DNA of 64,000 nt from Tubiluchus corallicola (Eukaryota > Priapulida > Priapulimorpha > Priapulimorphida > Tubiluchidae): NCBI GenBank assembly GCA_030141605.1, contig JAQGDQ010000198.1:47501-111500 (forward strand). The letters are read 5' to 3'. Of the stretch, positions 2,372-58,671 are shown piece by piece. Each line of letters opens with the position of its first letter. Position 1 is the first letter of the stretch. A model generated the notes under the pieces. That model saw nothing but the letters and a program-made list of their open reading frames with translations. It made no database searches and was not told the origin of the DNA. Made by a program: the position numbers and the translations under genes.

Positions 2372-5253
2372 TTAAGAACCCTGATCAGACTTGATTATTT
2401 CCAAGCAATCGGCTTTGTCTCCATTGACGATTCCACCATGCAATGCTTTTTCTAGAACAAATGCATCCGCTGGCTCAATGCGTTTGTAATAATGTTCTTT
2501 TGTTTCTCTGATCTCAAAACCGTATTTCTTATAAAAGTTTATGGCTTGCTCATTATTAATCTGAACATGCCTGAAAGAAAAAACACGACAAAAATGTAGC
2601 AAATATTTAACTAGTAGCTTATTAGACAATTTCTTTAAAAAGTCAGTTCTAAAATTAATACAAAACATAGCAAGAATTTACAATCTAGATACTTTTTGTA
2701 TAGTTAGATCTGCTGCAAAACACTACATTTAGAACCAATTTACTAAATTAAAAGAACGTAAGAAGGAGGCCAAGCATAAGTTTAAAAAAAATTCCATTAT
2801 GTGTGTTTGTTCAGTGCCATCAATATAATAGATTGGTAATACCTCTTTGTTAGCCAAACAAGAAGCCGAAACAATAACAGACATATGTTATATAAGCTCA
2901 ACAGATACTAGCTATGCACCACACAGGTTACAATCATCATTAACAATCTGCCAAAGTCAACCATTTCAAGTTACATAATACTGAATGAAAAACCAAAATT
3001 TGACTTTTTTGCTGTGGATATAAAACATTTACTTTAGTAACAAATTAAAAATACAAAAGGAAAATGTATTTACAGTATCAGTACAATACAAATCAAAATA
3101 CTAACTTATATAAAAGAACAATACTAATCAGAACAAATGCTCAGACAGAAAATATTGAATTGTCAAATCTGAATATATAAATCATAACTTAATGTAAAAA
3201 TTGTTTTAGTGCTCCTGCCATTTTCATTTTTTTTCAAATCTACATGGAAAGTACAATGAGCATTTCATTGCTTCTATATCTGTCATTAGTTTCCTGTAAC
3301 ACGAGACACTTCATCCAGTGACGACTGTTCCTTATCGTCATGCAGTTAATTCAAACACTATACATATTCAGTTAGCTCAGATAACAATTATACTATTCTA
3401 TGCATGATCATAACGTGCAAAGACCATCATCATATACAATTTGCAATTTTAAGAAAATTTGTAGATTTTCTTCAAGTCACTGATGGAAAATTTGTCAACA
3501 AAAGTACGTGTAAAAAATTAGCATAAATGTTTCTGTTTCGAATCAGAAAATACAACAGTGGGTGTTATGCATTACACAGCCATCTAACACAGCCATCCAG
3601 ATACACTTATGGATAAAAATTAATAAACAATCGAATTTTATCTACTTACAAAAATATGCTGTCTATGTTGCCATCTCCAGAGCAGATTTCAAACACATGG
3701 TCTAACATCTTTGCTCCTACAATATTCATGTAACCTTTAAAACTTGTTTTCAAATTATTTACTTGGCTGTTTGCCTATCTACAGGTTTCTCAGCAAACAT
3801 GTACCAAAACTGCTTACATTGTCAGTAGAATAAACACAGAAATCAGCTTTTTCAGAGTGTACTGAGGAAAATATCTAAGGAGAGATGTGCCAACTGATTT
3901 CCTTACATCCAGTTTAATTTATAAAATGACTTCATGTCCTCTTTTAACACACTCTTTTTTAAGACAAACACAAAAGTATTTCACCATACTTTATCTGAAA
4001 ACTTCACCTGTTAGTTTGTTTTTATAAAGAAATGTAGCTTTACAAATGGCTGCTAGAAGAAATGATCACCACTAAATATGATGTATTTTGCTAGAAACAT
4101 GAAACCTACTTCACAAATTCATGGCAGCCTCCAACATAGATATAACTTCTTGTATAAAACGTACTTCGACGAATTATACGTTCGAACTGAATCGACAAGT
4201 TTTTCACGCTCTAACTTCAAAAATTCCTTGTGAGTGACTGCCATTATTAACGAATTATCAAAACATCTGGCCAGATTTCCATTTGCATTTCTAAGTAAGC
4301 GCAGAGTATCCAGCAAGGGTCCATGCTTTCCAGGGTGTTCATTAACATTTTTCCATATTTCACTACATGTAACTTTCCACAATTTTAAAATTTTTCACTC
4401 TAAGATGCACAGGCTAAGAAAATCCAAATTTTGCAATGCCACTACTTCCTTGAATCTCATTCCCTAATGAAAAATTATTCAGCACTTACCTATACCAAGG
4501 CGCCTGTAGGGAGCTAGGCAACCAAGAGTCATTATATATAGTTTTCTTTGTTTGTCACTGATGTCAATCCGACAGCAAACAGCACCAACGACTATGTCAT
4601 TATAAAATGCTAAAAAACAGGTAATAATAATTACTAGTGTTTAATGAGAAAAAAATCATAAAAATGATATATTATAATAAAGTAAAACTAGCTATATTGA
4701 TCAGTTATCAAAGACTATATCACAGAAGTAAAAAAACCTAAGTAAAAGCATATACAAGAGCATAGATTCTATATTTCATAACAAAAACAACCTAACATTT
4801 CCAACAATAACAGAGATCTCTTTGTTACATTACATATACTTCACAAGTCATAAAACAATAAACACCTAATAAAAAGTTATTGAACTAAAACTCAAAAATA
4901 AGTGTTTTGTATTTCAACCAGATGTTCGACAAATATAAGGCTATGACTTGAAAACAATACTATAAAAATTAAATATGCACAGCAACTGTATCAGTTAACA
5001 TGCTGAAACTTGTTCTTTTTTCATGCACTAAGTACAGAATTTGTGAACATCAGAATATTGTTAATTAATGCATACTTGCACACTTATCACTTATAGCTTA
5101 CCCAGCTTAGCTAGTTTTCCAGCTTCTAAAACATCTTTGTAGAATTTATCATTATAGGAAACCGGGAAAACGACCTGATTTAGCCGCTTGAGTTGCTTGA
5201 TATTATGTGGTGTCACATCACCCAATTCTATCCGTCCTCCTCTTGGACAAAAA
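2372..5253 (-). CDS. NAA50: N-alpha-acetyltransferase 50 (NatE catalytic subunit), first exon not located
   Basis: NAA50 is a GNAT-fold enzyme that transfers acetyl from acetyl-CoA to N-terminal methionines of nascent proteins; it works with the NatA complex and supports sister-chromatid cohesion. Four exons join in phase on the minus strand: 5253-5102, 4609-4490, 3716-3650 and 2570-2372, with the stop at 2374-2372. The product reads very close to vertebrate NAA50: RIELGDVTPHNIKQLKRL, then FPVSYNDKFYKDVLE, the acetyl-CoA loop in GCLAPYRRLGIG, the HVQINNEQAINFYKKYGFE strand and the YYKRIEPADA motif. About 160 residues are covered, nearly full length. The start codon lies in an upstream exon I could not fix; the open frame before 5253 (MFSILAFLF...) is only the pyrimidine tract of the acceptor. 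A decayed LINE lies upstream, so exon 1 may lie beyond it near 8.9-9.2 kb. Confidence 0.95.
4119..4382 (-). other. open frame of 87 codons inside a NAA50 intron
   Basis: An ATG-to-stop frame in NAA50 sense lies between exons 4490-4609 and 3650-3716. The predicted protein is mixed and not low-complexity (for example HGPLLDTLRLL, THKEFLKLEREKLVDSV). I recognise no family and see no clear flanking splice sites. It could be a remnant of an inserted gene or retroelement, or chance. Confidence 0.2.
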
Positions 5254-6543: not shown

Positions 6544-8872
6544 TAGAATCCTACTTTATTGGACTTACTGATTGTTAACAATCTGCACATTGTATCAAAC
6601 CTGCAGTCACATTCACCAATTGGCAAAAGTGACCACTTAGTTATATCATATAGCATCGAAGCTTCCTGGGAAGTAAAAATTACTAATCATAAGAAATATA
6701 ACTTTTACAGAGCAGATCATACAGCTATAAAAAACTACTTAAATTCAAAAGATTAGGATGTAATTTTTCGAGATAAAGATTTATTTACCTGCAACAGTGC
6801 ATTGGAGGAAACATGGCAAAATCAAGGCAACAGTACAAAACCAAAGTGGTTTAATAATGAAATAAAATTGAAACTTAGGCAGAAGAAAGCTGCATGGAAA
6901 AAATATCAAAGAACAGCTTCTCGTGACAATTATGAATGATACGCTCCAACTAGGAATGATGTTACAATATTAGTTAGAACAGTGAGAAGAAACTTTGAGC
7001 AAAAATTGTCAGAAGAATGTGGTAGTAATCCTAAAGCGTTCTGGGCATATGTAAATTCTAATTTAATGAAAAAAAAGAAGGAGTAAGATCCTAAAAAGAG
7101 AAAATGGTAGTATTGCCACTACTGATTAAGAAAAGGCTAATGAATTACAGAATTTTTTCACATCTGTTTATATAAACGAAGATACAATCCAAATTCCTCA
7201 ACTACTACCAGTAACTGAGTATAAACTTGATGTATGTAGCATCAGTGAATTAGAACTTAGAACAAAAGTTAAAAAAATGAAGGCTAATGAATCTATGGGC
7301 CCTGATGGAATCCATGCAAGCATAATGAAGAACAATGAAGATATCCTTATAAGTCCAATGCTACAAATAATGAACCAAAGTTTATCCAGTGGTATAATAC
7401 CACCGAGTTCGAAAATGGCCAGAGTTTCTGCTATCCACAAGAAAGGTGAAAAAGACTTAGCAAAAAATTACAGACCTATCAGTCTGACATCAGTTGTTTG
7501 TAAATTGCTAGAAGGAAAACAAAGGAATAAAATCTACAACTTCATTCCTGAACATTATCTCATTCGTGATAGTCAACACAGCTACAGAACTGGCAGATCT
7601 TGTATTACAAATCTATTAGTTTCACTTAAAGAATGGATGGATTTACTTGATAATAAAGGCGAAGTTGATGTTATCTTTTACGATTTTTTAAAAGCGTTTG
7701 ATCGAGTACCCCATCTGAGACTGCTTTAAAAACTTGAATCATACGGAATTTGTGGTCACCTGCTAACATGGATTAATAGTTTTCTCTGTGGGAGAAGGCA
7801 ATGTGTAGTAGTCAATGGGCAAGAATCAGAATGGGCAAATGTGACCAACGATATACCACAGGGAAGTGTGCTTGGACCTATTTTACTTACTATTTACATA
7901 AATGATCTTCCTGAAGTTTTCAACTGCGGTAAAACCCTGTTTGCAGACGACATTAAAATATATGGAAAAGCATGTTGCCTGGTTGATTTTGAGATCATGC
8001 AGAATAATATTAACTATGATGAGCAATGGTGTCGCCAATGGCAAATGGAATTTAACACCGAAAAATGTAAGCTCCTGACTATTGGAAGGCATGATATTGC
8101 AGGTCGAACATATAAAATGGCACATGGACAAAGTTCTACAGAAATTATAAGCGTCACAGAAGAAAAAGATCTGGGTATTACCATTTACAGTATGCTTAAT
8201 TTTCAAACACATATAAACAACGTTGTTAATAAAGCACATGGAAGACTGACTTTAATCAAAGGTAGTTTCTCTTATCTTGATGGATCTATGATGACCAAAC
8301 TATATAAATCAATGGTTTGCCCTATATTGGATTATGGTGATCTGATATGGAGCCCAAATCGTCAAGACATGATAAGGAAAATTGAAAGTATACAACGTCG
8401 AGCTACCAAGACTCGTACCTGCTGTTTCTCATTCACCATATGCTGCAAGACTTAAGAGTCTAGACCTTAGAACTCTGAAGTACAGATGCAAAAGACAATA
8501 TTTAATCCAAACATTTCATATCCTTAAAGGTATAAAAACCATCAACAGCGAAATATTTTTCCATCGACAGACATACCATGGTACAAGAATTCACTCCTAC
8601 AAAATTAAGAAGAGAACAGTTTCCCAAAGGTGGAGTAGGAGGTTCACATTTGCAAGGCGAGTACTTAATGAGTGGAACACACTGCCTGACACTGTAGTCC
8701 AAACCTCCAATCCTGCACAGTTTAAGTCTCGTCTCGATAGACACTGGAAATGCAATCCTGAAAAAATATACACCCCAGGTTGCCACAATGGCAACAAGAA
8801 AACTTGTGCTACGCTTCAAGATCGCAGTGTGGCCACCTATTTTGTTCATTTTTTATATTAATAGGGTAAACA
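6544..8872 (+). mobile_element. decayed LINE of the CR1/L2/Jockey group, 5'-truncated
   Basis: The element begins inside the C-terminal end of an APE-type endonuclease: about 6560-6660 reads LLDLLIVNN then IGKSDHLVISYS, the SDH motif. A linker follows, then reverse transcriptase from about 7270 to 8450 with PDGIHASIMK, KNYRPISLTSVVCKLLEG, the DFLKAFDRVP block, IPQGSVLGPILLTIYINDLP and the FADD catalytic box near 7945. The tail at 8390-8860 (YAARLKSLDLRTLKYR, RVLNEWNTLPD) is typical of CR1-like elements. It is dead: in-frame stops near 6754, 6940, 7085 and 7727, and a frame change near 8400. Its 3' end is near 8870. It lies in opposite orientation to NAA50. Confidence 0.93.
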
Positions 8873-9250: not shown

Positions 9251-11125
9251 TACATCACCTAGCTTCAAGTTTCAAACAGCCTTATAGCTTTTAACTATAC
9301 TAACTGCCAAATATCATATAGAATAAAAAATCTTCAGTGCTTCAATAAGAATAATTATAAGAGTAGAATAATAAGACGATTTTTAAAGGAATTACCAACC
9401 TTCTTGGATGTTAGGGCTTGTCCCAATGTTTGCAAAAATATTAAAGGATATAGTTATAAAAGTGTGACAAATGCCTCATGCAATTAGTAAAATTGTTTTA
9501 AAATCCCATTCATTTCATGTTTAGGCGCTCCTTCCTTGAACATCCGTTCTTCCACCAGTAACATACAATAAGTGTTAACAATAAATTAGATAACTAATTT
9601 TGTGGTATTTTTGCATAAACATTGGGCAAACTGCAGAAGCTTGGACTCGTTTAAGCAGCACGTTGCCTAAAATCACAAAGTCCACCAATTGCATCATAAT
9701 GACGGCTACTACTATATGCCTGAAAATGTTCATACTATAGCAGTAATCGAAATTAGCTTTGTGCTTTATGAAATTTAAAGTTTTATTGTAAGGAAACCCA
9801 TCTCACGTTTGCAAACAGTAAATTTCCACAGGTTGTTAAAGTTAAATAAAAATCAATAATTTTAGACAGCAGGGAACTACACATAACATTTAAACTTTTA
9901 AACATTAAGTATTATTATGTTTCAATATTTTACTGTCAGCAATCTTCTTCAGGTCATAAGGTTGTAAGGGGTATACAGTTACAATTTTTTGTTATGATTG
10001 TGCATGCTTGTTTGATTTTTTTATACATTGTAAACTGATAAGTATAACTGCATGATGAAATTTTTCTATATTTTTTGTTATGACACAGTCAGTAACTAAA
10101 TAAAAAAGTATTTAATTAATATAATTTTAAATATTTATAGATAGATAGATATAGATAGGTAATATATATACAATGATGAAATTAAATTAAATACTTTTTT
10201 ATTTAGTTACTGACTATATCCACAGATCGGGATGGTGATTGTGCATAACTTTTTCATTTACAATACCAAATGAATAGTAAGTTAAATTGCATGTCATTAT
10301 TTCCGACGTTTATTGAATTATCATTAATTAACGTTCATATATAGCATGATCTGCATAATATCGTACACAGATATACTTTACTTTTTCTTCTAATGTATAT
10401 AGTTTACTATATCCTTCTAATATATATATATATACTGGAATGTATGTACTATACTAATATTAAAAAAGATAATATATAGGCCCTATACTTCGGAAAATAT
10501 ACATTTAATAGCATTGTATACTACTAATTTAAAACTCAGTTTGAGGTGGCTGATTCGATGACTAATGTATTTTGCCACCCCTTTGCATTTGTTTGGCTTT
10601 TTAATTTATATTTTATTTTCTATGTATTATTATTAGGAAAATAAATGATTTGATAAAGAGTTTTAGAATAAAATTTTTACACTTTGTAAGAACCCGAGCA
10701 GTTTGCTACCTGTACACAGGACTTAAATGGATTTGGCATTAAATCTTGTGTGTACAATGTTTGCTAAAATGTCAGATCAACTTTATCACATAATTATACA
10801 CGATCCCAGTAATTTATCCACATGCCAATCTGCTTATTCAAGAACTTATATAATTAGTACTTCAATTATAAATATTTGTAAACGTTGGCGTATAATTAAT
10901 GGTGCAGCAGTTTTTGACTGCTCTGGGTTATTCTTGAATTTTGATTAAGTATGTCTGGAAATCAGGCGTTATCAGTGGCATAACTCGCAGTCGCGTGTTT
11001 TTTACTTTACTACACTTGTCGAAAGTCTTGTTAACTATTTGGGTAAGCAGAAGCTAATAATTGATACAAAGGGGACAAATTTATATGCAAATAATTTATA
11101 CATGTATATGATAAATTTTAAACAG
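9251..11125. other. intergenic AT-rich stretch
   Basis: No supported gene. It contains the inverted repeat at 10087-10215, a GATA-type microsatellite at about 10137-10160 and a (TA)n run near 10424. The 73-codon frame at 10727 has no coding character I trust. Confidence 0.5.
10087..10215. repeat. inverted repeat with 34-bp arms (fold-back or MITE-like)
   Basis: The left arm at 10087-10120 begins AGTCAGTAACTAAATAAAA; the right arm at about 10181-10215 is its reverse complement with one inserted base. The loop of about 60 bases is a GATA/TA-rich microsatellite. No target-site duplication is evident. Confidence 0.85.
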
Positions 11126-11261
11126 TAGCTTCGGAGAACAATACGTCCATTTGACTGCTCAGTGGTTGCCGTATACGAATTGTGTGGAGTGTTCATCGGT
11201 GGATTATACCTTGGAGGAGTCTACGTGGGTCGGTGGAGCGTCTGCAGAGGAGTGTAACTAA
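11126..11261 (+). other. possible short terminal exon or GC-richer island
   Basis: After an AAACAG acceptor-like sequence, a 45-codon frame runs to a TAA at 11259-11261 (SFGEQYVHLTAQWLP, then a cysteine-containing stretch). Its base composition is clearly less AT-rich than its neighbours. It could instead be part of a promoter or untranslated first exon for ACAT2 downstream. No family is recognised. Confidence 0.2.
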
Positions 11262-11309
11262 TGGCAAGGTGTACACTTTGCTGATGTACACTCTATCAAC
11301 GTATCGTCA

Positions 11310-11550
11310 GATGTAGATAAATGTATTTATCTCTTGTAATACACGGAAAATCAAGTACATAGCAAAATAAGTTATTAGTAGTTAGAGAAAGGGTGGCGAA
11401 AAAACCCTAAGAGGTTAGCAAATCAGTCACCCTTACTTAATTAAAATTAGTGCAAAAGAATCTAGCGACAATTTAAGCCAGGATAAAACAAAGAAAATTC
11501 TTCCTGTCAAACTGAAAAAAATTTAATAATGAAGAAATGGTAACAAAAAC
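11310..11550 (-). mobile_element. 3'-end fragment of a LINE related to the 11.7-14.7 kb copy
   Basis: A hairpin sequence at 11388-11434 (AAAGGGTGGC paired with GTCACCCTT) and a tail reading GTATTACAAGAGATAAATA on the minus strand match the layout of the 3' end of the neighbouring LINE. No coding part remains. Confidence 0.6.
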
Positions 11551-11729
11551 ATTAATAAATTACTTTTATTAAGTGGCAAAGCAATATAAAAATAAAAAAA
11601 ACAAACATAAGCAAAACAGGTAGAGAAACAAAACAAAAACTATCAGAAGTGAATAAGCATATAAAGTTACAATAAATAATAATGGATATAAAGATAAGCA
11701 TATTTAAGGAGTGAAAACTGAAATAAGCA

Positions 11730-14685
11730 CTGAAAACATAAACTGAGGGAATCAATTCAGCAAAAAGGATAATAATAATCATAATCTTCTTTATTTATCT
11801 TGCAATACACTTACAATTATAATACAATTAATTTTGAAAAAAAATTGTGAAGAAAGGGCAGCGAAAGACCAATTGGTCATCTAGTCAGCTGCCCTTTGGT
11901 TAGTGATGAACATTTTTACAAATGCTGTGCTACAGTGTATTAGTGTTAGTACTGCTTGTTGTTAGAATTTAATTCTTACAAATGACATTAAATTGATTTG
12001 TTTATAACTTGTCATATATAATATATTAATACAATTCATACGCAGTAATAAAAAATCAAACAAGAACTGAAAATAAAAATCTGACAACGGAAAAATAAGA
12101 ATAATGGCAACTGAAATATACTTCATGACACAAGCATAGTATTTGACAGCCATAAATAAATTATCATGGAAATAATGGTACTGAAAATCAGGTGTATCTA
12201 CATCGGGCGTTAATTTTCATGCACAGGCATACAGAAATTATAATTTACATAACAAAAAGCTGATCATGTGGGAAAAAACAGCCGGAATAAAAAAAATACA
12301 TTGTAAACAATATTGTATGTTGTGTGTTATAGTTGTGCAGAAGCAAACGAATGTATAATTGAGTCGTTAAAAAATTACAGAGCAATTTTAGATGATCTGT
12401 GTTAAAATAACTAGGTACAGAAAATCACCTAGACTTTGCAAACTTGAAATTGATCTACCGAAGTTAGACAATAAACAAATTAAATATTGAAATTAATTGA
12501 ACCTGCTATAATAGTAATTGCTCTTGCATGCAGTTAGACAAATTATTGTAGTGGGCGAAAGGAATAAAAGTTGTTGGAAAAATACTGTAAGCCTGCATGT
12601 CGTTAATCTCAGTAATAAGTTTGCAAGGGTTGATATTTATATAATTTACTCAAGTGACAGATACTAATTGATTGCTTAAGATCGTCCGAAAGGGTATTCC
12701 ATAGAATTGTACTATTGTGTTTTGAAGTTTTTAGATCTCTGTTGTGTTAAATCTTTCCTGAAAATAATATTTAGTAGCTTGCACTCGTAGAATATTGCAC
12801 TAATCGTTCTGAAATAATTGCTGTATAATTTAGGTAGAATGCCCTTTTTATAATTGAACATAAATTTTGCTAACTCAAGCTTATAAATTTCATTTATTTT
12901 TAATAATTGCAAAGCATAATAAGAAGGGGTATCATGATATCGGAACCCAGCAGAAGTCCTTTTGTTTTGATAATTTTTTTATGTGCTGCTGTAAGTGGTT
13001 TCACAACAGATTTTTTTTGCTGTGTCCTACAACAAGGCACAATAGTCAATATGTGGGTGCACAATGGCAAAGTAAATCATTTTTAGGATATCCGTGCTCA
13101 AGCAATGCCTCAATTTATAAAATATAACTGTAACTTTGCTTACTTTGTAGGTAATATTTTTTGTGTGTTGGCCAATTAAGTGTGTCATCTACGTAAACTC
13201 CCAGATATTTTATGTCTGATACTTGTTCTAATAAACAGTCTTGCATGGATACTGTTATATTGGAGTTTTCATTGTTTTCAAATTTATTTCTTATGATCAT
13301 AAATTTTGTTTTATTATAGTTTACTGTTAACTTATTTGTTCACATCCATATGTTAATTTTGATCAGTTCTTCATTACTTCTAAGCTCGAGATTATGTGTG
13401 TTGTTATCTACTAAGAAGAGGTTAGTGTCATCAGCAAAATGTCATGTTTGCATGTTAGTACAAAGAGGTAGGTCATTTATATATATCGGGAAAAGAAGTG
13501 GACCCAAGGTGGATCCTTTAGGTACACCACATTATATTGGGCATGGGTCGGAAGCAGAATTGTCAACTATGGTAAATTGGTGTCAGTTCGTAAGATATGA
13601 CTGAAATAGTTTTTGAGCGATTCCACGGATACCATAATAGTCCATTTTTTTGAGTAAAATGTCATGTTGAATGGTGTCAAATGCTTTTGTTATTGTCTAG
13701 GTTTGTCAGAAGATTGTCTATGATTTCAGCAGTTGCTAATATTGTGGAATGATTTTTGCGGAACCCGAATTGAAAACATGATATTATATCATTTTTTATT
13801 AAATATGTCATCAGACGTTTATATAAGAATGACTTAAAAATTTTAGCAATGGGTGATACAAGTGAGATGGGTCGATAGTTATTCAGCTCATTTGGGTCAT
13901 CTTTTTTATATATGGGGATTATTTTTGCCAGTTTTAAAGTGTCAGGGAATGTCCCAGTCAAAAGTGATGCATTAAACAGATTAGTAAGCGGAGCTAAAAT
14001 TATGTTTTTTGACATTTTGAAACATGTAATTTGGATGTCATAAGGGCTTTTGCTTTATTAGTCTATCAATTAGGATTTAGTCTATCACTAGTTTGCGAAA
14101 TCTCGAATTTTGTTGGGGATGCACCAGATAGTCTGTATACTTACAGTTTTTGGGTTGTGTTATGCGTGATGCCAATGATATACCAATGTTTGCAAAAAAA
14201 ACTGTTAAAAGCATTAGCTTCATGGTGCGGGTCACATGAAGTTGTGCCTTGGTAACAAGCTTTAGTAGGCATTATACTAGTTGTCTTTTTTAATTTTGAG
14301 AAGTTCATTGATAGTGCTCCAAGTTTGCTTCATGTTATTTTTGTTTGCAAGCAAGATCTGGGAGTAGTATTTCTTTTTGGATGCATGTTTGATGTGATTA
14401 ACTTTGTTAGAATATGTTTTATATAAATTTTTCTTATGCAATGAATTGGATTACTTATGTGTTACATGGCTTCTTGTTTTAATAGAATTGAGAATGCCGG
14501 GAGAGATCCAAGGTTTAGCTATAGTTTTTGAATTTTTACTTGATAATTTTGTTTACCATATTCGACGAGTAGTGTTTTTAATGAATCCATGAATTGTGAG
14601 CAGTAAGAGTGTATGTTTGCTTCGACATCATTCAGTGTTAGGTTACTTATATTAACTTGAAGCTTGCTTATAATGTATGGTAAAG
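11730..14685 (-). mobile_element. decayed LINE (Jockey/CR1-like), minus strand, with 3' hairpin
   Basis: On the minus strand the element reads from about 14685 down. Around 14510-14330 is the linker after the endonuclease (PWISPGILNSIKTR, KKKYYSQILLANKNNMKQTW). Reverse transcriptase spans about 14010-13100: NNYRPISLVSPIAKIFK, FGFRKNHSTILATAEI, the block near 13640 ending in HDILLKKMDYYG, GVPKGSTLGPLLF near 13500, FADDTNLFL near 13430, and DIKYLGVYVDD near 13210. Several stops and frame changes break it. The 3' UTR holds a hairpin at 11853-11897, and an ATT-rich tail lies at about 11764-11790. The 12-base word CTGAAATAAGCA occurs at both edges (11718-11729 and 14686-14697) and may be the target-site duplication, although about 34 extra bases lie between the tail and the left copy. 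Confidence 0.9.
11853..11897 (-). promoter_or_regulatory. LINE 3' UTR hairpin
   Basis: AAAGGGCAGC at 11853-11862 pairs perfectly with GCTGCCCTTT at 11888-11897. Inside lies the 12-base palindrome GACCAATTGGTC (11867-11878). It sits about 100 bases from the LINE 3' end. In L2/UnaL2-type LINEs a 3' stem-loop is recognised by the reverse transcriptase; that role is inferred here. Confidence 0.6.
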
Positions 14686-15521: not shown

Positions 15522-22543
<7,022 letters not shown>

Positions 22544-22762
22544 AACTACAGCGCTTATTATTCGCTTGCTAACGAGGAAAGGGATGGCTGTTCCATGAGT
22601 AGGCAACATGAGCCTGAAATAGAATAAGATTGTAATTTTCCCTGGAGTAGGGAACAAAGTGCCTGCACTTTTACTTACATGGCATGATTACATTCCTTCT
22701 GCATAATTATAACTGAAATTGTAAATAGGTTAAAATTGGTGATGGGGAAAACGAATTGTTAA

Positions 22763-22768
22763 AATAAA
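22763..22768 (+). terminator. candidate poly(A) signal for ACAT2
   Basis: AATAAA 220 bases after the ACAT2 stop codon, the first canonical signal downstream. Confidence 0.5.
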
Positions 22769-22769
22769 A

Positions 22770-24329
22770 ATAACAGCTAGCACCCACTTAAGCACAGACA
22801 TGTCTTTGCCTAAATGATTGCTGGCTGTTATGTTTAAGTTGACAGTTGTTTTTATTCTTGTGTATATTATAAGTTAATTAGGGTGTTCTGCTAATTGAAA
22901 ATGTTGCATTGCTATTCAAATTATGCTCCAAGATACAGCAATTGCAAACTTTAACTAGTGCTTGCTAACATTAACTAATACTTTAAAAGATGCCTGGTTA
23001 GTCATGTAAAAAGTAAAATGAATTTCAAAAATCACTGTTTTATGTGTGCATATGGTTATTTTAAAAATTACTGACAGATGAGGCTACAAGTTTGCTGATG
23101 GTTTCTATAATGTGATTTTTTGTTTCTGCTAATTCTGCCAGTCTGTTTAGCATTTTACTTTTTTAATTTTAATTCTGCCAGTCCATTTTTTAATTTTATT
23201 TGTAGAGTGAATTTGTTATTTTAGAGGTTATTTTCTCAGCATTACGATAACCAATCTTTTTCTGGTGCTTCTGCTGCACAGCTCAGTTTGCTTGATGTGG
23301 CGATGAAAAATAAGTAATATTTAATATGCCAGTAGGCTGTGCATTCTGCTGTGGTTAAAGAACTCAGACCTAAATGCTAAACGAAAGCCATTGTTCATGT
23401 ACAAGCACTGAAGGTGATCGAACCAATCACTTACTCGTTAAGGCCACACTTATCCACACTACCTACAGCCACTCACAATAGAAAACCTGACTAGGATTTC
23501 GGTCACTTATTTCATGCAGTTTTGCCATTTTATTGTTCTTTTTTCTTGTTAAAACATTTCAAATAATGTTAATGCAAATTGAGAGTGCATATCATGTGGT
23601 CTGCTTTTGTTAATTTTTTAGAAAGTTCGAAACAATATTTTTAAGAAGAACTATTATTTAAAAGTTTATGATATGTTTGTAAAACTCACATGAACATAGA
23701 TATTACACTCTGCACTGAATAGCTTATTAATATATGGCTGCAATGATAACAAATAAAATAATTTCATAATGTAACCTTGACCAAATAATGGTCTAGTTTG
23801 TCAGACTTTGGATTCCTCTCATCATAATGAGTTCCAAGTTTTTGTTTTGCCAGCAAAATCATATGTTGCTTAACAGTGAAATTTCTCTTCTAGGCTTTTT
23901 CTGTTAAGAATTAACTGATTTTATTATCTGATGATAGTTCATTGTGGTAAGGTATATTAGTATATTTTTATAATTATGTGTCACTGTTTGATGTAATCTT
24001 AGTAAACTACTGAGATATTTTTTATTCATGTAATTAGTATTGGGGTGTACATAGTTGTGAAGTTCTGTATAGTAGTACACTGTTGTTGTTTTGATTATTG
24101 TTATTAAACCAAAACGACTAGGAACTATTATTATTTATCACCTGTAATATGAATCATGTATATTTAACACACGTTTCTTCTGAAATAGTAAAATCCTTTG
24201 CTAAACATTATATTTTCTCTTTGCGATAATTTTTGAACGAGTTTACAACTAATACTGGCTTTTGACAGAATTACCCGAAACCGCTTCAAAATCAAACTAG
24301 TCCGAAATGCAAAGCATTTAGTTCCTGAT
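22770..24329. other. intergenic, no feature seen
   Basis: AT-rich sequence 3' of ACAT2. Longer 3' UTR forms are possible (another AATAAA near 23752), but nothing else is supported. Confidence 0.45.
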
Positions 24330-38700: not shown

Positions 38701-41700
38701 AGTATGTTTTGCATAGCTAATCTTTTAATGGCACTCAGAAATTCAGCCAAACTATACAAATACTGGCTTAACTTATTTATTTATTTATTTATTTATTATA
38801 ATTTTATTTCAGACATATAAAGTCCTTATGAAATGCAATACATAAAATTGTATAACTTCAGATTTGATGCTTTGGCAGCCGCTAATCAGCAGAGATGCTA
38901 TTTGCTTTCTAACAACGCCTTCTTTTTCCTGCAAAGATTTAGATCATACTAATCTTATGCGTTAAAACTGACACGTTGACTTGCATGTTTTCCAGGAAAA
39001 ACGGACGAAGTATAAACCAGGCCTTAACCAAGTCAAAACAACAGCACATGTGACATAAAAGAACATCTCACGTAAAACAATCTCAAGCCTATGATGCAAT
39101 AATTGTTACTTCCGGCATTTGAATATTACATTGCATTTAGATAAGCCCTGTGTGCTTAGTTTTGGATAGTGATATGCCGCACATGATTTATTTACTTATT
39201 TAGTTTTCCATAAACTATTTTGAAAGATGGCTGTCCGACCTCGACCCAGTTCTTTTTTCGCCAAAATCTTCGTATATCTCTAGTTCTTTGGTTGATTAAT
39301 CAATAATCGTTATTAACAATAAGTCAATCATTGCATTTAGGCTCAAACCCATTACTCTTGGTCTATAACTCTCTGTTGTATGCATGTCTATTTATATTAA
39401 TAGCGTTGCTGAACATTAATCATTCTCGCATTAGCTATAATGAACTACGAAGTAACGCCCTAAGCTAAAGTATATTCCATAGATATTTATTGCATGGGTA
39501 AATCCACAAGCGTCTATTTACATGCTTGCGGGCAATCATCTGTCACAGCTATTTGTATTGAACAACCTACATCTCCCAATATTTGTGCCCATTAGGAAGA
39601 GCTACTGGGAATACTTGTTTTAATAAACATGATTATGTAATCAATACCTCTGGGACAGTTCTGACGAATGCTTGCGCGCTAAGACGCAAGTCTTTTCACA
39701 GACCCAAAATGAACTCCCTCCACTTACGCAGAACCATAGTGTACGAATTTGGGGACTGGTTGGGATGAGTTTCGTTTCACTGTTTATTTGCCAATTATAG
39801 GATAAACTTACTATGCCAAAAATGATGGACCCATTTTAGAGTGACACCAAGAGCTTCATGGTGTCGCACGATCTTGCTGGTAAAAAGAAATTCACTAATA
39901 AAGACACGGGCGGAAATACTGTTTTACCCCAAAACATTTTCCAGTTCCAACTGAGCACATAAACAGACAACGCTAAACCATCTTTTTAACAAAGACAATG
40001 GTATACGTCAAAAGTAAATAAATGGAAAGCAGTATAAGAATTACCCAGTGAATTTTTGTCACTTATTTCTCTGGCGATGGGAGAAAACCAAAGTGATTTC
40101 ACAGTAGACATAGAGATTTTTTCTTTATCTCCTAGTTAACACCAGAATTACAAGATAAACAGTAAAAGCTATAATTAACTAACAATTGGGATAAATATAT
40201 ATATATATAAGAAAGTGTCATGGGGTGCAGGAGAAAGGTGTAGCGAAAGACCAATAGGTCATCAAAGTCAGATACCCTTCTCAGATTAATGTAAATTATA
40301 ACAAAATTTCGTAGCGCTGTTATAATGTAGAGTGGATTATAATCACTGTTCCTGAAGATCTATAGAGGGAACAATTATGCATGAAAACGAGATAATTAAA
40401 AATACTACGTGGTAAGCAAACAATGTAATAATATGAAATAGTACTCAACCAAATCTGTAAATTATATAACTAACTGACTAAACTATAAAACAAGGGTACC
40501 AAATCAGATCCAACCAAAGAGGAAAATAAATTATAATTGAAGAATCAATAATGGAAAACAAAATATGCATGACAAAAGGAAACTAAATATAATGGAACGA
40601 ATTAATGAAATGATATTCTGTCAAATATGTCAAATATAATGCTGAATAAACTGTGGAACAAGAGAACTTATATAAAGAAATAGAGATGAAATAAACAAAT
40701 GATAACTGAATGACTAAATAGACTATGAATAAAGGAAGTGAAGGAACATGATATAATAGAAATTAAAGGTAACTTGAAACAACGAGCAAATAATATAATA
40801 ATATGAAGATATGAATGATAAAACAGAATATGTAAGCAAAAGTAAAAGTGGAACAGCAAAATATAATTTTTACAATGAATTTTATTTTTTGTTTTACTTC
40901 TATTTTTGCTTACATGTCCTGTTTTATAATTAAATATCTTCATCTCTTTATATTATTTGCTCATTGTTTCGTACTAGTGCTTTAATATGGAATGGATGCC
41001 ACCCTGATTTGTGATGGGTAATGAATGAGGAGAGGAGCACTGAGGTTGAAAAGGGTGAGGACAAAGGCTTAAAATACCAAAATTTGTCGGTAAAAACTTA
41101 ATAACATTATTGTAGCAATACATGTACTTTATTATGGTCATAACTTTATTATAACCTTATACTTATCATGGAGTCTATATTTTTAGACCTTGTTTGATTA
41201 CCTACTTACTTACTTACCTATTTAATTACTTAGGCTTACTTACTTACTCACCCACGCACTCATTCACATACGCATTCACACTCACTCACTTACACACTCA
41301 CGCACGCACCCCTCCCTCACTCAAGAAAACGCTTAAACTTTCATATCCGGAACACGTACAATAATCATTCTCAGTTTTAATACTGGATCTCATATGTCAT
41401 TCAGTTTGATCTATATTAAGTCAACACTTAACTTTTCTGACATGTCTATATTGAATTCTTGTACAAAGGCTTTATGTTTTCCGAGGTAAATTAATCTCAA
41501 GCTTCTTAGTCTTCATTTTGATTTTATGCGACGCCATTGGGAATTTGGCAGCAATTTAAAACTGTCTTTTAGAATTCAACAATAATAGACTCTGAATAAC
41601 TTCATTCGAGTATTTTATGCAAGCTTACGCTTTTCTTATGCAGTGAAAGTCTATTTAATAAGATTAGTTCCCAAATTTCTAAACGGAAAAATCGCTCATA

Positions 41701-47413: not shown

Positions 47414-47555
47414 ATTAAAGGCACGACTACCCCACTTTTTGAAGTTTACAAATGAGACGATTAAAGGCACGACACTATCCCACTTTTTGAAGTTTACAAA
47501 TGAGACGATTAAAGGCACGACACTACCCCACTTTTTGAAGTTTACAAATGAGACG
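47414..47555. repeat. three tandem copies of a 46-48-bp unit
   Basis: Units at 47414-47459, 47460-47507 and 47508-47555 each run from ATTAAAGGCACGAC to CAAATGAGACG. The first lacks two bases; the others differ by a single base. This suggests a young duplication. Confidence 0.97.
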
Positions 47556-47635
47556 ATCTACAGAACAGTAAACAAACAGTTAAAGAAAAAGCGTAACAAT
47601 GTTTAACAATCATCAGAGCTGACAAGCTGATTTAG

Positions 47636-48330: not shown

Positions 48331-51300
48331 TTAGCTTCGCTCCTCCGGGAGCATATTTTCGAAACTGGTAACTTGTCCCCTTTGCAACATGCTACGCCAC
48401 TTATCTTTCAAATTCACATTGGTCCTATGCGGAAATTTGCACACAGACAGAATTCGCCTCCACTGTCCTTCACCATATTTCTTTACAGCCTTAAAAAATC
48501 TAATCTGGAAAATTGTAATAAATAATATTTCAGTGTGAAGCCACTTTTACGAAAAACGACAAGTAGTTCTAGAACATTTGTATAATCAAGCACTTTAAGC
48601 ATACTGCTTTCACAATACTGTGAACTGTAAAATTACTGTGTGCTGGAGATGTTTGCGAATTCTGCGAGCAGGGCCAGACAAAAAATATCGATGTGTATAA
48701 ATTACACTGCTATTTAAGTGAGATTGTTTGATAGTACTTGTTTAGTTTATAAAGCTAAAACTTTTATGGAACAATTTATCTATAGAAAGGAAATCCTGGT
48801 TTTTGCTTTTATTAATGCAGCTGTAAGTTTTTTATGCTCACAAATGTAACAAGTTAAATGATTGGTTATTCCACAGATTTTCCTTTCTTTACTCTAGGTC
48901 TATTACGAAAGGGTCAACTGGCAATGTGTTAACACTGTAAAATTAGGGCTACCGGGTCAGCACCAGATTAAGCCATAAGCAAAATAAGGACATGTTTAGG
49001 GTCTCTGGGAAGAGATGCACCAACACAGTTTTCAATATGACGGTACAGATGAGAATCGAGATTCTTGCTATTGAGCAGCCTGAACTGCTCACTGCCCATA
49101 TGATCACGTTGACTGGTAATATAATGGGTCACAATATATTTCAAGCATGGTAATACTTACAAAAATGTGACGATACTGAAAACAAGATAATTTTGCTTTT
49201 GACTGTATGTATATTGTCACATGGTGGTGACGATGACTACGTGACTACTATAAATAAGTCTTACTGCAAGGTTTTTTCAAAGATAAAAGTTACTTTTGCA
49301 GCTTACTATCATTTTTATTCTCAATTACACACATACGGGGGCACCATAATCTTTTCGGTGCTTAGGGCCTCCTGAGATCTTAATTTGCCCCTGCCACGTT
49401 TGTTACGAATTAATCTGCTATACATATAACTACCTGCCTAATAACGGGGCAGCCAGAGGCTATGGCAGCCATATGATCAATAATTAGAAATACCTGTTTT
49501 TTTTAGCAAAACCCTAGCTTCACTCAGAAAACCTAAAGTTTTGCTACCGAAACTATAGTTTTCTGAGAGAAATTATGATTTTCGAACAAAACTCGAGATT
49601 TTTAAACAAAACTACGGTTTCCTAACAAAACCCATCATTTCTGAATAACATTGAGCTTTTCAAATAAAATCCAAGATCTTTGAGTGAAACTATGGTTTAA
49701 AGACAAAATCTATGATTTCAGTGTAATGATGGCATTCCTCGTGGGTGGTGGCAATTAGTAATTTATGCAATACTAGTAAGCGCACTTAACTCTTTGTTAG
49801 CGTTACGAGACTGAAACTAAGCTTCTGAGTACGGAGTTTTCCTAGCGGTATATGTGTACCTGTTTCTTTTATTCTAATAATAGCCAATTTGAATAAGCAC
49901 GAAAAAAGAAAAAATACATTATAACAACTGGCCATTTCAAGAACTACAATAGGAGTTTTTGCTATCAGACAGAGTCAACCCCGACAGTAACTGGAGTTTT
50001 CACAGTTTAAAAGAGTTTGTGCACAAGATTCCACCAATCTGCGTAATCACAACTGAGTTCAAATGTAAACTGTTACTTATCTCTGGAGTGAGTGCTCACT
50101 ACATCAGTCAATTGGCAATCATGGTGGCACACCCATCATCTCTCCATGGACCACCCGAAAGTCTCCGAAACACCACATTCCGTGGCTTGACAGTGCTAGG
50201 TGTCAGTCCGTCCACCACAATGACAACTACTGCAAGGCTGTGTGGAAGGTTCAAAATGGTTTTTCCTTCACTCAGTTGCATTACAAGACATTGTCCATAC
50301 AAGTAGTATTATACCATTTATAACTAACTTAACTAACTGTCCAGGATTTTCACCAATAAAATGTCAACTCAGCCAATTTCAACAAATAAAACATAAATGT
50401 GTCCTCAAAATTACAAGCCCAACATTATAACTGCCATATTTTCCAGCTTATCCAACTTGTCTATATCAAAAAGTGCATTCTCTCAGTTACAGGAAGAGTT
50501 CATTTCATTTCAAGGTAGTTTGATATCTTAGACTAGTAACTATAGCACTATAAAGGCTGAATGTGAGTGTAAAACACCCCTGCAAATAGAGCCAAAACCA
50601 ACACACTTTTAAAATAACCTTCTTAATACTGACATTTAGGATAACTGTGAGTGCCTAATATATTATTAAAACAACAGCAACAAAAAATGAAGTAAACTAT
50701 GCAGGTAGTTTCCTTGTACAAAAGCAAACTTAGTTAGGTCTCTTTAATCGAACAAAACATTTGTCACTGAACCAAGTTGTATAAAATAATGTACAAAGGT
50801 GGTTGCTTGTAATGCGCAAGAACACAATTTAGCTAAGGGCTGACATAGTCTGGTCCATCACATTCAGGAGTGAAACTGAGATTTAACAACAAAAGGCCAG
50901 TTTCACAAAGCAGTCACTAAGTTAATGAGGTCGTTACTATGATTTTAATGAGTTCATTAACATTTGCATTTCACAAAGCTATCAATACTTTAAAGACGTC
51001 ACTATTTAGCGACAAAATTAGTGGCGAGCAAAAGTAGTTGTTAAGCGATCACAACACGATTATAGCAAGCAGCTGGATAATAGCCTTTTTGAGCAGTATT
51101 TATTTTTTCTTTAAAAAAATTCTTTATTATTACTGCATAAGAATCATACAAAATTCTTAGCACAGTATGTCAACCAATTTACAAAATTTATACAAACCCA
51201 TACTGACTAAACTCATAACTAGAAGAAATTATTATACTATTTACCTGCGATTTTTAGGCTCTAAAGCATGTGGTACTAAGCAATACTACGGATTTCCCCT

Positions 51301-54300
51301 TTTCAACCTCTGTAATCATCATTTCCAATTCTTGTTTACTAAATAATTATATGGTTTTCGCTTTTTCAACCTCTGTAATCATTATTTCCAATTCTTGTTT
51401 ACCAAATAATTACATGGCCTTTCTTTTTTCAATCACTGTGATCATTGCTTTCAATTCCTGTTTATTTCGAAATAATTATATGACTTCCAATTTTCAAACT
51501 CTGTAATCATTATTTCCAATTCTTTAACAGCTAATTTTGGTCGTTTGATTTCCTGTCCGTTTGAGCTGAAGCTAAAATATAATTTGGCATTGACTTGGCT
51601 TATTATTGAAAAATCAAGAATTATTTTTGTTATTACATGATGCTTAATGGTTAATGGAAAGTAATTTTATTTTTTTAGCAGAAAAGACTTAAGACTAGTA
51701 TAGAATAATTAAAAAACGAAATGCTTTTTCGGTGCATAGGTGGCAAAAAATATGTTGCCCGCCTAACATTTTTTGATCATCTTTGAACCTTCTCCACCCT
51801 TATCACAAATACGCAAACTGCCAGGATTATATTATTAATTATATACACCAGCTATTAGCTCAATTAGCCACTTCCATTTTCAAAACACAAATTTAAGTCT
51901 GCTATAATCACACATATGGTAGAATGTCTAAGTACAGATAAAGGGTTATGTTTCTAGTTCAGATGTGGAAAAACGTTTAAATATCACATTCGTGTAAACT
52001 ATCACTTGATAAGAAGTGTTTTACAGACGGTTTATTATCTCTCTTTTGTCACTCTATACTATAGGGTGACACAAAAGTCACTTTGCCCTAAAAAGTTGAA
52101 AGTTAGTTTCATTTTATTGGTGTTCATTAATAAATATTGAATTTTAAAAGAGTTTACCATGATGAAATACACAAATTCTCAAACAATGAAGACTGATATC
52201 AAATTTTGCTTCGAAAACAATTTCACTTATCCTGAGACGGATCACAGGCCTGACATATATTGTTACAGGTGTCAGCAGAGCAGAGCAAGTGCCCATAAAG
52301 TAATAACAATAAAGCTTCATTGCTGCACATTTATTAGCAAATATTATTATTGTTATTACTTATTTAGGCACAAATAAGTACAATAAAGAAAAAGTGAAAA
52401 AGCAGACAAAGAACATAAAAAGGCATATGAACAATAAGGGTTTCACTAGTGTGCCAGGGCCAGCAGCAACCAATTTAATCCCCAAACAGCAAGCTGCCTG
52501 CTGGCCTATACTAAAGAAATGAATAAGAGAATTAGTGATAATAAATGAAAACTAAAACAAGATAAAATGTACAAAAATTAAACAAAAAACACAAAATATC
52601 AGATATAAACACATTTTTAAATAAACTGATTAAGAAAAGTAAAAACTGTAAGAAAACCATTGTGAAATTAAAAAAACTGTTGAAATACTAACCAATTGCC
52701 GTACTAGCACCCAAGTAAAAACATATTCGTTATTCATCTAGTAATTTACAGCTTTACTAACTCAGACAGTGGAACAGAAATTAACTGACTATGCTGTTTG
52801 CCTGACTTGAGAGAACCATTTTTTCTTTGGGTGTCATAAGGAAAGAAGAAGAAGAAAAGCCCAATGCTAATTAGGATAGATGGATAGGGCACCTATTTTT
52901 GTACCCTCAGCACCCAAGGCTCGCCCATTGCTCATCTACCTTCTTTTCCTAGTACATAACCAGGTACACAAATAAGGCTGAGTAAACCTAAGACGGCTAG
53001 TGAGTCTTGCATGTAGAAAGGATTACGGAAAGGTTTAAAGAAAGGTTTTATATGACTACACCTCAAACACTTCAAAAGGTACAAAATGATATTTGACAAG
53101 AAAGCAAAGCTGAAATTTTACATACTGTTAGGGCATACCATTCCAAGAATAACAATAAATATATTTAAAAGAATTTTTGCTTATGGCTTTTCATTGAGAA
53201 CGTTTTTTGTTTTTAATTTTTCAAAAGAAAAGTGGCTTGGAGCCATCCTGAATTAAGCATATCTCCTAATTTACATGTTGATTTAAGACATGACGACAAT
53301 TATACATGTACAAACAAGAATAAGCAACATGGCAAAGAGATACCAAATATAATATATAACAGTAAAGTCTGTAATATAAAGTTAATATGCTAAGACAGTG
53401 TGATCGAGAATAGTCTTAAGTTATTCCTTCTTGCTCATGGTACTGTGTTAACTTCATCAAACTGAAGGCCCTAAAACATAGATGTGCTCTTAACTTTGTG
53501 AATGTCATACCAGCACGAAAACTTCATCCAGTGCTCAAGCTACTGCAAATGTGCAGTAACAAAAGGAGAAAGCAAAAATATCCAAACTCCTCCAGACAGA
53601 GACCCTACACCGTACTCAATATGCTATTGTTTACCTTAAGCCAGTTCAGAAATTCTGGTGGAGCGTATTAAATTAATTTAAGCAAACACATTTATGAAAC
53701 AATTACAGCTGTCACCTGCAAATGAAATTGAAATGAATCACAATAGCAACTAATAAGAAATGTTAGTTATTTGAGTTCAGGGTTGCCGCTTGTACGGATA
53801 GTGACTTAAGTGACTAAGACTTAGTTTCTGACTTACATAGGGCTTCGCTCAGAAATATCAGGTATTTCTAATTATTGAACATTTGGCTTGCCAGCAGTTC
53901 TTTATTACAATGCTGTGCTGCAGAAACAGGCTTTGAAGCTCACTTTGCAAACAAGACGTTAAAGCTCAGTTTACGCATATTTGAATCAGTTTTTTTCTGG
54001 TTTATAGTATTCAATTCTGCCCTTGCTAACATGGCAGTGAATGTTTTTGAATAAACATTTTGTATGTTATAAACTAGTGTACATGATACTGCGTGAATCA
54101 TTGTCTAAAAGTCTTCAAATGTGTTAAATACAAACCTCTTCATCCTGTGTCCATTTTCTGCGTCTGTGTCGATATTTACCACGTTCACGCTTTGAACGAC
54201 CTAAAAACAAATAACTTTAAATAAATTAATGTCTGAAAAGCAAAATCTATATAAGTTTTGATGCTTTTTTCGTAATCTGCTCTGAAATTATTCATGAACA

Positions 54301-57300: not shown

Positions 57301-58671
57301 GCCGAGTATCATAAAAAATGATAAAATATGAACCAATAGTTTTAGCCACTAGCTACTTTAAAATAGCAATAAAGATAATATTTAGCGTACACAGAATATT
57401 TGATTTGTAATTTCATTTTTTTAATACTACAATGAGGCGCTGACCAATGAACACAAGTTATTTGTTACGTAATCTACATTTACATTTATTATTATGACAG
57501 GAATCAGTGTTTTATTTTGTATCACCTGAAAGCAGCAGTGATTTAAAAGTATCCAAGATTTTTTTAGCGCAGTTGAGGTCTTCAAATGTCAGGAACGCTT
57601 TTAATACAAATGTTACCAAAAATATTATTCTTAAACATGGTCTATAACAAACAAATATTTCATAAATACTGCTTTTAATTACTAAGACATATCTACCACT
57701 TATGCTGCTGATTTCAAATGCTTCTTCATTTTCCTCGCTAAAAAGTTTACGCTTAGATGGCCTCTTTATGACAGGTTTGGGTGAGTTGGAGCTATTGTCA
57801 TCAATACTACAGTTTTTCTTGTTCACTGAAAAAAATAGTATTTCTTTGTCATTTTAACAATTTGCTAATCACTATAATGAATAAGTGCTGACAAACTGAT
57901 TTACTTACTTTTAATGTGTTCCTGTACACCGATAATGTTATATTTTGAAAATTAATACGAACTGTTCAAAATCTTTAAACAATTCAACAATAAATTAAGT
58001 GAAAAAATAAGATATCTGTCTTCAAAATAATATGGATAACGGCGATATATGTAATATCAATAAAAACATGCCTCGTGGATTTGATTCTGGTGTAGAATTT
58101 TGTTTGCTAGCACTAGATTTCACTTCAGAACCGCTTTTCTTAGCCTGCTTTTGAGATTCATCTGAACCACTCCTAGCACGTTTGGGAGGTTCAAAGTTTT
58201 TATTATCTGTTTCAGCATCAAAAGAATCTTCGTTTGACTGACGTTCACGCCCTTGTTTCTATAAAAAATGAACATCTGTTTTTAAAAAACTGAAAAATTT
58301 TCTAAGAAAACTATATATATATATATACAACATATACATACATATGTGTGTGTGTACTATAGTAATTATCTAACTATATTTTACCATATAATATATATAT
58401 ATAGTCAATTATAGTTAGATAATTAGTTAAATGTATCTGTAATTATTTCAAATACACACACATATAGGAACCGCCATATGCGCCCACGGATGATATATAT
58501 CATCAGTGGGCGCCGCTATGCTTACTGCATATACACATACAACGTCTTTTGTGTTGGAAAGCACTTCTGGACCATACAGACCTGACTTGCATCTAATTAG
58601 CCTTACAGAATCTGCAAAACCAATTGAGGACCTAAGTCGACGACTACCTGCATGTATATTGCTTGTACAGA

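Follow-up and report, generated by a model that had tools for sequence, protein, structure and literature searches.

The question raised by this stretch of DNA from the priapulid Tubiluchus corallicola is why a short, two-part hairpin should occur in it several times, and what kind of element, if any, the hairpin belongs to. The original prediction had placed three copies of common layout on the minus strand of the window (the whole stretch analysed here, 64,000 nucleotides) and had taken them for LINE 3' ends. We found the three hairpins where they had been placed, as well as a fourth one that the prediction did not include, located on the plus strand (Table 1). On the strand of the element, the minus one for h1 to h3, the layout is AAGGGnnnC, U, GA, an asymmetric loop, GACC-loop-GGTC, UU, UC and GnnnCCCTT. 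The variants described for the outer stem were confirmed, and so were the GACC/GGTC and AACC/GGTT versions of the inner stem.

Table 1. Hairpin copies, the signals following them and reverse-transcriptase (RT) remnants, in positions of the window.
Feature	Position	Strand	Description
h1, hairpin copy 1	11387..11436	-	Outer stem AAGGGTG.C/GC.CACCCTT, inner stem AACC/GGTT, 6-nt loop
h2, hairpin copy 2	11852..11898	-	Most regular copy; 10-bp outer stem, inner stem GACC/GGTC, 4-nt loop
h3, hairpin copy 3	40230..40282	-	Inner stem GACC/GGTC, 4-nt loop; one bulged A and mismatches in the outer stem
h4, hairpin copy 4	10540..10584	+	Outer stem GGTGGC/GCCACC; little left of the inner stem
Signal after h1	11325..11343	-	TGTATTA-CAAGAG-ATAAAT; GATAAA begins 55 nt past the hairpin
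Signal after h2	11793..11809	-	TGTATTG-CAAG-ATAAAT; GATAAA begins 52 nt past the hairpin; followed by GATTAT/ATT-type repeats
Signal after h4	10623..10646	+	TGTATTA-N11-ATAAAT; AATAAA begins 55 nt past the hairpin
Broken LINE RT remnant upstream of h2	12609..14054	-	RVT_1 matches in two frames
Second LINE RT remnant	7130..8861	+	Two open frames match RVT_1, at E 6e-10 and 2.5e-10

That the hairpins are real and related to each other is confirmed by comparisons of several kinds. The local alignments between hairpins had p≤0.01 in all six pairs that can be formed among h1 to h4 (300 dinucleotide shuffles each). Between h2 and h3 the identity is 85% along 48 nt; this match had E 1.1e-7 when a 0.55-kb query was compared with the window and E 1.3e-5 when the whole window was compared with itself, a comparison that gave no longer alignment of their flanks. 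With h2 and h3 as its sole sources, a covariance model run unfiltered on both strands of the window, gave 19 matches at E≤10, of which the top two were its own parents and the next best was h1 (22.6 bits, E 1.7e-4). The same model also picked up h2 on its reverse strand (E 0.0015), which a nearly symmetric stem would lead one to expect, and the site of h4 (13.8 bits and E 0.09, at 10545-10579 of the plus strand), all remaining matches having E of at least 1. With a model of the four copies no fifth one was found in the window, the only extra matches below E 1.9 being h2 and h1 again, on their reverse strands. At the level of letters, GACCNNTNGGTC is present at two sites only in the window, within h2 and h3, for a chance expectation of 0.04 matches. 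We also used a descriptor, composed after the copies were known, that asks for CTGA and TTTCG or TTTTG inside a stem with a net length of at least 6 and at least three G-C pairs. It had exactly three matches in the 64 kb, i.e., h1, h2 and h4, compared to a background mean of 0.42 per simulated window, and none of 60 first-order Markov windows reached three. Copy h3 escapes this descriptor, probably owing to the bulge and the mismatches in its outer stem. A looser fuzzy pattern was discarded as uninformative (17 matches in the window vs. 6–28 in 20 simulations); h1 to h3 were zero-error matches of it by construction and h4 was missed.

That short hairpins in A+T-rich DNA should be alike by mere chance would be compatible with the weakness of h4 taken alone, with the best local alignment between h1 and h2, which covers only 15 nt, and with the behaviour of GCGAAAGACC, which with one mismatch allowed has two matches in the window, i.e., the chance level (31 of 100 shuffles reach two). 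However, the E value of the h2-h3 match, that of h1 under a model that does not contain it and the agreement of the 3' signals between copies (see below) all go against chance, a reading that is already disfavoured and that we consider extremely improbable. The flanks were compared in the same way. The upstream ones are without significant likeness (the lowest p among the six pairs was 0.04, for h2 and h3), and the downstream ones gave p 0.01 for h1 and h2 and 0.037 for h1 and h4, the other pairs being above 0.17.

Downstream of the hairpin there is a signal, TGTATTR...ATAAAT, that is found on one side only and that sets the strand of the element. The window contains three instances of the pattern TGTATTR-N(4-14)-ATAAAT, one behind each of h1, h2 and h4 and on the strand of that hairpin, and no others. 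The expectation was 0.31 and none of 100 shuffles reached three, a probability that is flattering, as the pattern was composed after seeing the copies; its absence from the rest of the window is the stronger point. Measured as [AG]ATAAA, a hexamer with a frequency of 0.0022 per position and a chance of 0.009 of filling a given 4-nt slot, the signal begins 52–55 nt past the hairpin in three of the four copies. At h3 there is only a GATAAA, 100 nt downstream and beyond an intervening TA repeat, and the TGTATTR signal is missing. The proximity of the hairpin to what would be the 3' end of an element, as originally proposed, was thus supported in three copies, and the presence of TGTATTR...ATAAAT in them supports a retrotransposon 3' end. 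The exact repeats found within 4 kb, with a minimum length of 10 nt, included no clear target-site duplication (11 nt of the ATT repeat at h2, 10 nt at h3, 10 nt at h4 and none at h1).

The strand assignment rests on this one-sided signal and not on folding, because the opposite strand folds and pairs comparably. The folding z-scores were -1.26, -4.48, -2.44 and -0.78 on the element strand (h1 to h4, respectively), with equally good shuffles in 22 of 200 cases for h1 and 42 of 200 for h4, vs. -3.37, -3.20, -2.93 and -3.14 on the opposite strand. Likewise, 51 of the 59 paired cells of the four-copy alignment are kept on the element strand (86.4%, the shuffle mean being 81.8 and 1 of 500 shuffles as high), vs. 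53 of 59, three of them as G-U, on the opposite one. These figures, by which the opposite strand beats the shuffles in all four copies, could be taken to indicate that the hairpin is not the tail of a LINE or SINE but the end of a DNA transposon, a retroposed host RNA element or an RNA of the opposite strand, and the missing signal of h3 and the presence of other palindromic repeats in the window would be in line with this. However, TGTATTR...ATAAAT stands on one side only and on the same strand in three of the four copies, and no Rfam family reached its gathering score in the window, so that we regard such an origin as improbable.

The search against Rfam covered both strands of the 64 kb and gave no match at the gathering threshold. 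At E≤5 there were 2, 2 and 6 matches in three stretches around the copies, all far below the gathering scores; a match to sau-53 overlapping h2 had 19.3 of 100 bits. A hammerhead or other ribozyme, a candidate prompted by the GAAA and CTGA runs, was rejected, with no such match in Rfam; the order of the core does not fit either. Candidate phage or viral relatives were dismissed as chance by eye. They were three near-identical phage-like contigs (L001-L003), which match inside coding ORFs, and another hit (L004), which matches in the 5' letters only and without the hairpin. Exact patterns had no matches in viral contigs, and another exact pattern had none in prokaryotic genome contigs.

Compensatory changes in the stems had also been put forward for these hairpins. 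Changes on both sides with the pairing kept were indeed found in 4 of the 15 base pairs over the four sequences (14 of 500 shuffles reach four). Both the covariation score of the alignment and the number of cells with changes on both sides were reached by 1 of 500 shuffles, and for the count of further pair types, one of five measures, there was no excess (426 of 500 shuffles reach the observed number). Six slid versions of the alignment contained no changes on both sides. RNAalifold counted four such pairs among 14 predicted, with a slightly unfavourable covariation term (+0.19). The four-copy alignment misplaces the loop insertion of h1, and one mismatch in the inner stem of this copy is an artefact of it. 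The shuffle tests ignore kinship and involve four copies, and because related sequences can surpass shuffles without any structure, the paired changes are to be read as suggestive, i.e., they point toward structure without proving it.

To which element the hairpins belong was addressed through the reverse transcriptases of the window. The remnant on the strand of h2 matches RVT_1 with E 5e-18 (about 13193-13693) and, under the Pfam cut-off, with E 3e-6 (13695-13907), and by eye its C-terminal part and a stop lie near 12609-12611, about 0.7 kb before the hairpin. The remnant on the plus strand, for which Pfam matched nothing in the last frame (8382-8861), ends 1.68 kb upstream of h4. The two are 26% identical over a piece of 125 amino acids. 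At E≤0.1 and in three frames, Pfam gave no match over the 2 kb that precede h3 or over the last 1.7 kb ahead of h4. The region upstream of h1 was inspected by eye only; at most about 330 nt separate the tail of h2 from the h1 hairpin. A dispersed repeat is present in opposite orientations at 9383-9658 and 16984-17308 (74% and 77% identity in two pieces), and its first copy, lying between the plus-strand remnant and h4, may be a later insertion separating them. One search of the PDB with part of the plus-strand RT gave a single match of no use (E 0.15). The LINE protein patterns had matches in 1, 9 (viral contigs) and 122 (prokaryotic genome contigs) stretches, none confirmed by tblastn, and the collections searched being viral or prokaryotic, the absence of LINE relatives there says little.

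The designation as LINE 3' ends found an RT remnant in the context of h2 and none in the 2 kb upstream of h3. It is best grounded for h2, with the remnant on the same strand, and plausible for h1 and h4, from the common 3' signal; for h3, which offers the hairpin but not the signal, it is no more than possible. Alternatively, the copies could derive from the tails of a SINE or another short, non-autonomous retroposon, which would have taken over the hairpin of a LINE partner and with it the same function, so that few of them would be true LINE ends. The little space available before h1, the missing RT match upstream of h3 and the lack of significant likeness between the upstream sequences would all suit a short element of this kind. 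However, ARAGORN finds no tRNA gene in the window, and no tRNA, 5S or 7SL family appears at E≤5 around the copies (11001-12400, 9900-10800 and 40000-41200), a search that a badly decayed tRNA-like head could escape. The unlike upstream sequences, on the other hand, likewise give no common SINE body. We see this origin as conceivable, if rather unlikely.

The fact that the upstream sequences are without significant likeness, together with the two different RT remnants found upstream of h2 and h4 on their respective strands, is also the reason to consider that a single tail hairpin might be common to different retrotransposon lineages, LINE clades having exchanged it or non-autonomous elements having taken it up. 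We find this quite unlikely. A hairpin common to several LINE lineages would bear on the joint evolution of RT specificity and tails.

Other repeats and frames were observed along the window, which has a G+C content of 33.7% and contains microsatellites. Four self-complementary stretches, at 40776-40970, 10087-10215, 22748-22852 and 58363-58425 (80%, 79%, 77% and 88% in reverse self-alignment, respectively), look like short palindromic or MITE-like elements. There are tandem arrays at 51274-51527 (63-bp unit, about 3.7 copies) and 47414-47569 (48-bp unit, three copies). Open frames at 2375-2677 (minus strand), 16070-16354 and 19610-19861 (both plus strand) resemble by eye the exons of genes presumably encoding a NAA50-like N-terminal acetyltransferase and an acetyl-CoA acetyltransferase.

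In summary, the four copies are scattered and decayed; they have the hairpin in common, carry it before the 3' signal in three cases out of four and show some paired changes. The explanation that we favour is that a family of stringent-type non-LTR retrotransposons, either a LINE or a non-autonomous relative, probably has in this hairpin the RNA-recognition element of its 3' tail; the initial reading, a hairpin of LINE 3' ends, is the likeliest one, yet proven for no copy. In the RNA of such an element the hairpin would lie about 50 nt ahead of the ATAAAT, which is similar to a polyadenylation signal. Together with the bulged U and the asymmetric internal loop, the outer stem and the short apical stem would make the binding site for the RT of the element itself, and this binding would precede target-primed reverse transcription. 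Selection for RT binding would then preserve the hairpin while the remaining 3' region drifts, and truncation from the 5' end would leave only the tail at most insertions. We infer the ownership by a LINE, the binding, the truncation and the role in retrotransposition from sequence features. If they are right, the variation that preserves pairs in such a compact hairpin would be a natural substrate set for studying how LINE proteins recognise RNA, for which excerpts of one article name few experimental cases: UnaL2, ZfL2-1, ZfL2-2 and SART1 (PMC5135761).

The likeness to these and other known systems is taken here from excerpts of the articles cited. Known tails of stringent-type LINEs have an asymmetric internal loop or bulge located 4–6 bp from a terminal loop of 5–7 nt (PMC5135761). 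In h1, h2 and h3 a 4-bp apical stem is likewise followed by an asymmetric loop, and in h4 the apical stem is mostly lost. Among L2-clade elements, UnaL2, ZfL2-1 and ZfL2-2 are similar in that their 3' tails form a hairpin interrupted, a few bp below its terminal loop, by a bulge or an asymmetric internal loop (PMC4176376, PMC5135761), and in the ZfL2 elements the region between endonuclease and RT binds the stem and loop of this structure (PMC4176376). Set beside them by their descriptions, the present one is a two-part hairpin of 45–50 nt that precedes [AG]ATAAA by 52–55 nt. The loop of UnaL2 is GGAUA and its repeats are (TGTAA)n (PMC5135761), whereas the terminal loops here are AAUU, UAUU and UCUUAG. 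No TGTAA repeat was seen by eye in the 150 nt after each of the four hairpins, and with neither this repeat nor the GGAUA loop a UnaL2 tail proper is ruled out.

SART1, a member of the R1 clade, targets telomeric repeats. Compared by description, it is alike in possessing a central stem-loop in the 3' UTR that is essential for retrotransposition (PMC5135761), and it differs by ending in poly(A) (PMC3747384). The L1s of plants and the SINEs of monocots studied by Ohshima carry a conserved 3' hairpin of about 50 nt with compensatory changes, in which the letters of the loop and flank are conserved and those of the stem are variable; however, its 5'-CGAG-3' flank and UCU loop are unlike the letters of the present hairpin (PMC3747384). 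In an octopus RTE element the 3' UTR is mostly microsatellite (PMC9115989). We met no description of the present hairpin in the excerpts of the literature searched, which cannot establish it as unpublished. Its shape resembles that of stringent-type LINE 3' stem-loops, with differences in the loop and the spacing, and the hairpins of T. corallicola are most likely a fresh example of a known arrangement, in which a reverse transcriptase recognises its own RNA through a hairpin at the 3' end.
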